Source: Catenulispora sp. EB89 | GTDB lineage: Bacteria > Actinomycetota > Actinomycetes > Streptomycetales > Catenulisporaceae | Reading direction: 5' to 3' | Length of the DNA: 64,000 nucleotides | Assembly: GCF_041261445.1 (NCBI RefSeq) | Contig: NZ_JBGCCU010000002.1 | Coordinates: 124,001 to 188,000 of the forward strand | Part shown: positions 58,170 to 59,968 of the stretch, piece after piece | Layout of the letters: the number at the start of each line of letters is the position of its first letter | Position numbering within the stretch: the stretch's first letter is position 1 | The notes under the pieces: generated by a model | The model's input: only the letters and a program-made list of their open reading frames with translations | What the model was told of the DNA's origin: nothing | The model's database searches: none | Program-made: the position numbers and the translations under genes

Positions 58170-59768
58170 TCAGAGCACTGTCTCACCATTGGCGAGCAGA
58201 CCAAAGGTCACCGCGTCGACGAGTGCCTGCCAGGACGCCGTGATGACGTTCTCGTCCACGCCGACGGTCGACCACTCCGTCGTGCCGTCCGAAGTGGTGA
58301 TCAACACCCTGGTACGCGACGCCGTGCCGTGGTCGCCGGTCAGGATCCGCACCTTGTAGTCCATCAGCTCCAGACCCGCCAGCGCCGGGTAAGCGGCGGC
58401 CAGCGCGGTGCGCAGCGCCGTGTCCAGGGCGTTGACCGGGCCGTTGCCCTCGCCGGCGGCGAGCACCTCCTCGTCCTTGACCTTCAGCTTCACCGTCGCC
58501 TGGTTGACCACCGCGCCGTCGGCCAGCTGCTCGGCGAAGGTGCGCCAGGACAGCACCTCGAAGAAGCGCACCGGCGCGCCGCTGAGCTCGCCGCGCAGCA
58601 GCAGCTCGAAGCTGGCGTCGGCGGCCTCGAAGGAGTAGCCGTGCGCCTCCAGCTCCTTCACCCGGTTGGTCACCCGGCCCAGCGTGTCGGGGTCCGCGGA
58701 CAGGTCGAAGCCGAGCTCGCGGCCCTTGAGCTCGATCGAGGCCCGGCCGGCCATCTCCGAGACCAGCATCCGCATGTCGTTGCCGACCAGCTGCGGGTCG
58801 ATGTGCTGGTACAGGCCGGGGTCGACGCGGACCGCCGAGGCGTGCAGCCCGGCCTTGTGCGCGAAGGCCGACAGCCCGACGTAGGGGGCCTGCGGGTTCG
58901 GCGCCAGGTTGGTGACCTCCGAGACCGCGTGCGCGATCCGGGTCATCTCGGCCAGCCCGGCCGGCGGGATCACCTCGCGGCCCAGCTTGAGCTGCAGGTT
59001 GGCGACCACGCTGAACAGGTTCGCGTTGCCGGAGCGCTCGCCGTAGCCGTTGGCGGTGCCCTGCACGTGGGTCGCGCCGGCGTCGACCGCGGCCAGCGCG
59101 TTGGCCACCGCGCAGGCGGCGTCGTCGTGGGTGTGGATGCCGATCCGGGTGCCGGTGGCCTCGCGCACCTCGTGCACGATGTCCGCGAGCTGCGCCGGGA
59201 GCATGCCGCCGTTGGTGTCGCAGAGCACGACCACGTCCGCCCCGGCCTCGGCCGCGGTGCGCAGGCACTCCAGGGCGTAGTCCCGGTCGGCCAGGTAGCC
59301 GTCGAAGAAGTGCTCGGCGTCCAGGAACACCCGGCGCCCCTCGGCCCGCAGGTGCTCGACGGTGTCCCGGATCATCGCCAGGTTCTCCTCCAAGGTGGTC
59401 CGGAGCGCCAGGTCGACATGCCGGACATGGCTTTTGGCCACCAGCGTGACGATCGGCGCCCCGGACTCCCGCAGCGCGGCCACCAACGGGTCGTCGGCGG
59501 CCTTCACACCGGTCCGGCGGGTTTTGCCGAACGCGGCGAGCTGCGCGTGCTTCAGGTCGAGCTCTGTTTGAGCCCGCCGGAAGAACTCCGTGTCCTTCGG
59601 GACGGCCCCGGGCCATCCCCCTTCGATGAAGCCGACGCCCAAGGAGTCCAGGTGCCGGGCGATCGTGAGCTTGTCGGCGACGGCGAGGGTCAGGCCCTCC
59701 TGCTGGCTGCCGTCGCGCAGGGTGGTGTCGTAGACGTGGAAGGACTCGTAGTCGCCTTGTGCGGACAT
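58170..59768 (-). CDS. cimA: Citramalate synthase
   Basis: This is a 532-residue DRE-TIM metallolyase. VYDTTLRDGSQQEGLTL and the GFIEGGWPGAVPKDTEFF motif mark citramalate synthases rather than isopropylmalate synthase (whose barrel has EVGFPS). HTHDDAACAVANALAAVDAG is the metal-binding signature, and the C-terminal half is a LeuA-type allosteric domain (LELMDYKVRIL). It condenses pyruvate and acetyl-CoA to citramalate, which LeuCD and LeuB turn into 2-oxobutyrate for isoleucine. A leader peptide and terminator precede the start. Confidence 0.92.
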   Translation of the reverse strand: MSAQGDYESFHVYDTTLRDGSQQEGLTLAVADKLTIARHLDSLGVGFIEGGWPGAVPKDTEFFRRAQTELDLKHAQLAAFGKTRRTGVKAADDPLVAALRESGAPIVTLVAKSHVRHVDLALRTTLEENLAMIRDTVEHLRAEGRRVFLDAEHFFDGYLADRDYALECLRTAAEAGADVVVLCDTNGGMLPAQLADIVHEVREATGTRIGIHTHDDAACAVANALAAVDAGATHVQGTANGYGERSGNANLFSVVANLQLKLGREVIPPAGLAEMTRIAHAVSEVTNLAPNPQAPYVGLSAFAHKAGLHASAVRVDPGLYQHIDPQLVGNDMRMLVSEMAGRASIELKGRELGFDLSADPDTLGRVTNRVKELEAHGYSFEAADASFELLLRGELSGAPVRFFEVLSWRTFAEQLADGAVVNQATVKLKVKDEEVLAAGEGNGPVNALDTALRTALAAAYPALAGLELMDYKVRILTGDHGTASRTRVLITTSDGTTEWSTVGVDENVITASWQALVDAVTFGLLANGETVL

Positions 59769-59801
59769 GCCCGGGACTCCTCGGCTGTGCAGGCTTCATA
59801 G

Positions 59802-59839
59802 AAAAAACAGAAAACCTCCCGTGGGAATCCACGAGAGGT
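59802..59839 (-). terminator. Attenuator terminator in the cimA leader
   Basis: ACCTCCCGTGG (59814-59824) and CCACGAGAGGT (59829-59839) form an 11-bp stem in the RNA with one G-U pair and a 4-base loop. On the minus strand it is followed by TTT CTG TTTTTT (59813-59802). It lies wholly between the leader ORF and cimA, 34 bases before the ATG, so it can only serve as a regulated or partial terminator. Confidence 0.87.
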
Positions 59840-59864
59840 CTGCGCGCTGGCGGTGGGCAGTGGC

Positions 59865-59921
59865 TTATCGCTGCTCCGGTGCCGGCGCGCACGCCGTAAT
59901 AATCTGCGGCTGATGCTGCAT
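59865..59921 (-). CDS. Candidate cimA leader peptide with Ile-Ile codons
   Basis: An 18-residue ORF reads MQHQPQIITACAPAPEQR and stops 26 bases before the terminator stem. The two Ile codons are both ATT, a codon avoided elsewhere in this GC-rich sequence. TGCGCGC just after them (59885-59891) is complementary to GCGCGCA (59841-59847) directly before the terminator stem, a possible pause or antiterminator pairing. No clear Shine-Dalgarno is present, so leaderless translation or a different frame (an overlapping MLIPCSIS frame) must be considered. Confidence 0.5.
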   Translation of the reverse strand: MQHQPQIITACAPAPEQR

Positions 59922-59968
59922 GGGATCAACATTGCCACAACTCCGCGCGGCTGGGACAGTGCATCTCG

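Follow-up and report, generated by a model that had tools for sequence, protein, structure and literature searches.

What controls cimA in Catenulispora sp. EB89? The gene encodes citramalate synthase, the enzyme with which an established route to isoleucine begins; a reading made from the sequence alone had proposed that the gene sits behind an isoleucine-type attenuator. In the window (the whole stretch of DNA that was analysed, 64 kb long), the minus strand carries leuB, ilvE, an MFS transporter gene, the putative leader, and cimA, in that order. The leader region is made up of a −10-like hexamer, the leader ORF, a hairpin (P1), a terminator with its U-tract, the SD sequence, and then cimA:

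59929 to 59934, minus strand: −10-like hexamer CAATGT, 7 nt 5′ of the leader ATG (from sequence)
59865 to 59921, minus strand: leader ORF, 18 codons plus TAA, encoding MQHQPQIITACAPAPEQR
59898 to 59903, minus strand: putative control codons ATT ATT (Ile-Ile), inside the leader ORF
59881 to 59891, minus strand: 5′ arm of P1, TGCGCGC.GGC (MFE structure and covariation)
59841 to 59851, minus strand: 3′ arm of P1, GCC.GCGCGCA, adjoining the terminator (MFE structure and covariation)
59812 to 59841, minus strand: intrinsic terminator hairpin AGACCTCTCGTGG-ATTC-CCACGGGAGGTTT, 13 pairs with a 4-nt loop (covariation)
59802 to 59814, minus strand: U-rich tract TTTTCTGTTTTTT, found in every aligned element
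59777 to 59782, minus strand: cimA ribosome-binding site GAGGAG, 8 nt 5′ of the cimA ATG (from sequence)
58170 to 59768, minus strand: cimA, citramalate synthase of 532 aa (TIGR00977), the predicted regulated gene

The short ORF that the sequence-only reading had placed between the MFS gene and cimA is there, as is the terminator with its U-tract 5′ of cimA. The cimA product scores 638.7 bits against TIGR00977, for which the cut-off is 450. The paired ATT codons had been pointed out in a genome said to prefer ATC, and the four neighbouring genes (cimA, MFS, ilvE, and leuB) bear this out with 56 ATC codons and 0 ATT codons for isoleucine. The MFS gene is on the same strand as the leader and ends 47 nt 5′ of the leader ATG. 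Because CAATGT lies 7 nt 5′ of this ATG and no SD sequence was seen, transcription probably starts at or beside the ATG, making the leader leaderless; the promoter-like hexamer is upstream of the leader and not downstream of 59802. Folding of the leader RNA is 5.3 SD better than that of dinucleotide shuffles. At the base of P1, TGCGCGC (59891–59885) pairs with GCGCGCA (59847–59841), and the helix extends inward through GGC (59883–59881) and GCC (59851–59849). Counted from the first nucleotide of the last Ile codon, the GCGC base begins 10 nt further on. P1 and the terminator share at most 1 nt, and both are present together in the MFE structure.

We looked for the same arrangement in relatives. 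Across eight genomes of the genus Catenulispora the leader is nearly letter-identical, and the stretch from the terminator to cimA varies in both length and sequence. At the level of the order, Streptomyces leaders encode MLSFAMIIGSRRAGPQ and have P1 and a terminator as in the window. Class-wide, a parser recovered this arrangement ahead of cimA in 94 of the 118 sampled genomes. This parser demanded an Ile codon, and codon positions were hence retested without that demand. Among 41 non-redundant loci picked by P1 and the terminator alone, all 41 have ATT or ATC close 5′ of P1, and thirty-four have adjacent Ile codons. These codons cluster at −14 to −8, against about one per position in shuffles. 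The predicted attenuator is thus widespread in Actinomycetes, occurring in most sampled genomes, including those of Streptomyces, Micromonospora, and Amycolatopsis.

Of the 39 leaders in a non-redundant set, thirty-eight have their last Ile codon beginning 8–11 nt 5′ of P1 (6 nt in the remaining one). The leader stop codon falls anywhere from 4 nt 5′ of P1 to 23 nt inside it. Since the spacing between the isoleucines and P1 is fixed while the stop codon moves, the position of the Ile codons is what is held. The peptides themselves are divergent except for their isoleucines (e.g. MAQALIIG and MTFCLIIP, each given up to the stop codon), which make up 19 per cent of leader residues in the non-redundant set. 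A [TC]ANNNT hexamer ends 5–8 nt 5′ of the start codon in 31/39 of the non-redundant cimA leaders, and an SD-like sequence precedes the start in only 2/39. The distance from the element to cimA ranges from about 20 to >200 nt across loci. ATT accounts for 49/78 (63 per cent) of leader Ile codons versus 5/969 (0.5 per cent) in the cimA coding sequences. Class-wide, the control codons thus favour ATT roughly 100-fold relative to the cimA genes, although one tRNA-Ile is expected to read both ATT and ATC.

Covariation of the terminator in relatives had been suggested as a check on the attenuator, together with conservation of the Ile-Ile codons, and both came out clearly in its favour. We aligned 38 diverse elements with MAFFT using sequence only. 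In this alignment, 93.7 per cent of cells in P1 and the terminator are paired, with 73 double changes compared to 21 ± 5.6 in shuffles (0/500 shuffles as high); sliding the structures along the alignment gave at most thirteen. The upper P1 pairs covary, unlike the basal GCGC/GCGC, whose 5′ arm is invariant and whose 3′ arm differs only by a G-U pair in two sequences. This conservation of the basal GCGC goes beyond the needs of pairing. The P1 loop varies in length and sequence, leaving the Ile codons as the sole conserved unpaired stretch. In the loci parsed across the class, P1 and the terminator are 0–2 nt apart.

A covariance model built from the 38-element alignment was then run on named cimA loci held out from another collection, although some of these genomes may share species with genomes used earlier. 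The model matches 61 of these 80 loci, and each match lies 5′ of cimA on the gene's own strand. Genera with matches include Streptomyces, Kitasatospora, Nonomuraea, Actinomadura, Micromonospora, Amycolatopsis, Pseudonocardia, Kribbella, Cellulomonas, and Demequina. Ile codons lie 8–14 nt 5′ of P1 in all 61 matches and are in tandem in fifty-seven. The held-out set shows 112 double changes versus 24 in shuffles, in an alignment that leans towards the model. Because the Ile codons, P1, and the terminator recur upstream of cimA both across the class and at the held-out loci, the leader is not a product of chance. The sequence-only reading was to be given up if cimA homologues lacked a conserved short ORF or hairpin; both are conserved.

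We conclude that transcription of cimA is very probably controlled by an isoleucine-responsive attenuator of the ribosome-mediated type, as first proposed; the Ile codons found class-wide and the position of P1 and the terminator upstream of cimA support that proposal. The control codons are tandem codons for the end product, an intrinsic terminator separates the leader ORF from the gene, a hairpin lies within reach of a ribosome at the control codons (8–11 nt in 38/39), and the target gene acts in the biosynthesis of the amino acid that would be sensed. This end-product logic counts in favour of an attenuator because cimA belongs to the isoleucine route and ilvE and leuB are close by. In the proposed mechanism, RNA polymerase would begin transcription at the leader ATG or close to it. 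A ribosome would load on the 5′ end of the transcript and translate the leader peptide, in which one to three isoleucines are the only conserved residues. With isoleucine plentiful, the ribosome would pass and leave, P1 and the terminator would form, and transcription would end 5′ of cimA. With isoleucine short, it would wait at the Ile codons with its leading edge reaching the GCGC base of P1. Given the conserved spacing and the usual ribosome footprint, a ribosome that held the last Ile codon in its A site would cover the first few nucleotides of P1, i.e. this same base. P1 would then be unable to close and the polymerase would continue into cimA. Leader translation, stalling under isoleucine limitation, and read-through are all steps that we infer. 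Once freed, the 3′ arm of P1 may pair weakly with the 5′ arm of the terminator, which is one possible link between the open P1 and read-through.

How such a leader would switch is less clear from its structure. The complementary TGCGCGC and GCGCGCA had been noted as a pair before our analysis, and they do pair, as the base of P1. The role implied for them, as a structure competing with the terminator, is not supported: the pair adjoins the terminator, with at most 1 nt shared. Class-wide folding of the elements turned up no conserved structure that would exclude the terminator. At equilibrium the terminator forms as readily with a ribosome mask (0.92) as without one (0.93). Pairing between the P1 3′ arm and the terminator 5′ arm goes from 0.01 to 0.45 before the terminator 3′ arm is made, but it is no stronger than for shuffles (mean z −0.14). 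Several candidate antiterminators were tried and rejected. A mini-hairpin that joins these two arms, GCG(C)AG-ACCT-CTCGC, is frequent, but its mean z is this same −0.14. Pairing of the P1 loop with either terminator arm, a type of pairing suggested for ilvB-II, gave mean z values of 0.27 and 0.36. A match seen by eye in Catenulispora between CACCGGAG in the leader and CTCTCGTG in the terminator is absent from the folds and unconserved. Finally, a hairpin enclosing the Ile codons in the Catenulispora fold has 3.96 spanning pairs class-wide, compared to 4.07 in shuffles.

One way to assign P1 a classical part is to treat it as the antiterminator itself. A stalled ribosome would leave P1 free to disturb the base of the adjoining terminator, and a ribosome that reads on would cover the P1 5′ arm and let the terminator form. 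The gap of 0–2 nt and the position of the stop codon, just 5′ of P1 or within it in the parsed leaders, fit this account. There is also a precedent in C. glutamicum ilvBNC. In its three-hairpin model the middle hairpin is the antiterminator (36–79), which shares 3 boundary nucleotides with the terminator (77–113), and mutations are supportive (PMC11857589). Against it, the two helices at our locus overlap by at most 1 nt and coexist in the MFE structure, and the conserved spacing puts a stalled ribosome at the very base of P1. We regard P1 as antiterminator as less likely than not, although this is a division of opinion about mechanism within isoleucine-responsive attenuation and not a competitor to that function. 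A further caution is that regulation of S. coelicolor ilvB was unaffected by changes to its leader codons (cited in PMC1262725); a leader peptide alone is thus no proof of classical attenuation.

Accounts that dispense with attenuation have less in their favour. If the leader acted on translation of cimA, by reinitiation or SD sequestration, it would resemble the LEU element and the ileS T-boxes, which are thought to act at translation in actinobacteria (PMC1262725); however, a strong terminator with a U-tract stands between leader and cimA and the distance to the gene is highly variable, making this account quite improbable. A riboswitch or protein-binding RNA with an incidental ORF could explain why the GCGC(G) base of P1, 4–5 bp long, is nearly invariant beyond what pairing needs. 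It would leave the freely varying P1 loop and the Ile codons as the only conserved unpaired stretch to be accounted for, it has no Rfam match, and we hold it to be a shade more improbable still. The least credible account, with next to nothing to recommend it, is a plain terminator of the MFS gene beside a chance ORF. The MFS gene does lie just upstream on the same strand, and the terminator would insulate that gene too. Conservation of the Ile codons already rules this account out: throughout the class the element accompanies cimA and keeps its Ile codons at a fixed distance from P1, and a promoter-like hexamer sits between the MFS gene and the leader.

Isoleucine-responsive attenuation thus being preferred, we compared the leader to known systems. 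In enterobacterial trp, ilv, and leu attenuators the leader is SD-led and the 2:3 antiterminator is well defined. The cimA leader resembles them in its end-product control codons and in having a terminator before the first gene, but it is apparently leaderless, and we found no conserved antiterminator. Closer at hand is the Streptomyces leuS attenuator, which likewise combines a leaderless ORF, control codons, a hairpin, and a terminator (PMC8079986, PMC1262725); it differs in having Leu codons, where cimA has Ile, and a tRNA synthetase as its target. In the actinobacterial ilvB and ilvBNC leaders (Corynebacterium ilvB-II, PMC10272879; C. glutamicum, PMC11857589) there are again adjacent hairpins, the last being the terminator, with an ORF that runs into the preceding hairpin and branched-chain control codons. 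These leaders mix Ile, Leu, and Val codons, whereas only Ile is conserved in the cimA leader; the primary sequences differ, and a competing helix has been proposed for them but none was found for cimA. Within this phylum, the LEU element of leuA likewise has a leader ORF 5′ of a synthase gene, a paralogous one, but it has Leu codons and a pseudoknot, pairs with the leuA SD, and lacks a terminator (PMC1262725). With its Ile codons and strong terminator, the cimA leader does not belong with the LEU element.

The window has no Rfam match that reaches gathering score, and permissive scans gave only sub-threshold hits, so no covariance-model match places the leader among T-boxes or another Rfam family. 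For Actinobacteria, elements of trp, leuS, ilvB, cys, leuA, and ileS were predicted by Seliverstov et al. (2005), who reported that the remaining amino acid pathways showed no conserved structures (PMC1262725). A reannotation of S. lividans lists eight leaders, none for cimA (PMC8079986). The sequence-only reading knew of no described cimA leader, and we found none published for cimA or citramalate in Actinobacteria within the open-access literature. The cimA attenuator is thus apparently undescribed. The gene holds the committed step of the threonine-independent isoleucine route; its control element is in neither Rfam nor the leader lists we found. It would offer a handle for strain engineering and for annotation, and it raises the mechanistic question of how a leader switches with no visible antiterminator.

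Not every cimA locus has the element. It is absent at the sampled cimA loci of family f18 and at the named Pseudofrankia locus L200, and f18 may be Frankiaceae because the Pseudofrankia locus likewise lacks it. In f23, which has streamlined genomes, cimA is directly behind ilvE with no attenuator. The f18 loci share another block, GGCGGCGAACCCGTC..CGTCGCGCG, one frame of which gives a conserved peptide, GGEPVxVARSG. The block lies 140–190 nt upstream of cimA (L096, L097, L098, L106, L108, L112, and L116), occurs in diverged forms at four further loci (L083, L084, L085, and L091), and had no Rfam match among the loci scanned. The block may encode another kind of leader peptide or be a small ORF; it carries no Ile.

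The covariance model also recovers leaders of other genes. In the whole 11.9 Mb genome it has two matches at E < 0.01, namely cimA (3e-17) and a leuS leader (1.2e-4). The latter (L143, G000:C6:390592-390687, minus strand) encodes MRAVTLLLMSPR ahead of a hairpin and terminator, and it corresponds to the leuS leader known from Streptomyces, reported from S. lividans TK24 as MRAVRLLLSEPR (PMC8079986). In other actinobacterial classes the model finds the same layout upstream of ilvB (leaders ending in LVLIT and similar) and of a few other genes. We tentatively suggest that cimA leaders may belong to a phylum-wide leaderless family with one architecture, in which mainly the control codons differ and there is no mutually exclusive antiterminator. 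In the shared architecture the control codons would conceivably keep a set distance from a hairpin, which in turn adjoins the terminator. The codons would perhaps be Ile for cimA, Leu for leuS, and Leu, Val, or Ile for ilvB, and possibly Val or Ile for a gene resembling isopropylmalate dehydrogenase and for an isochorismatase-type hydrolase. If this reading is true, the switch is the opening of the hairpin beside the terminator and not classical competition.

Further genes lie behind leaders of this kind. At ten loci from other classes (L159, L162–L166, L168, and L173–L175) a conserved protein of about 100 aa (..GTAEWQAPGQVALDM...WFERYF..) is directly behind the attenuator, and in some cases ilvB is next downstream. 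Leaders ending in GLLVVVT and SVLVVI (L161 and L172), with the hairpin-terminator layout, lie upstream of an isochorismatase-type hydrolase, an unexpected gene for which branched-chain amino acid control is a possibility. At L171, a leader encoding MSFSQVVIIR is followed by hairpins 5′ of a gene resembling isopropylmalate/isocitrate dehydrogenase.
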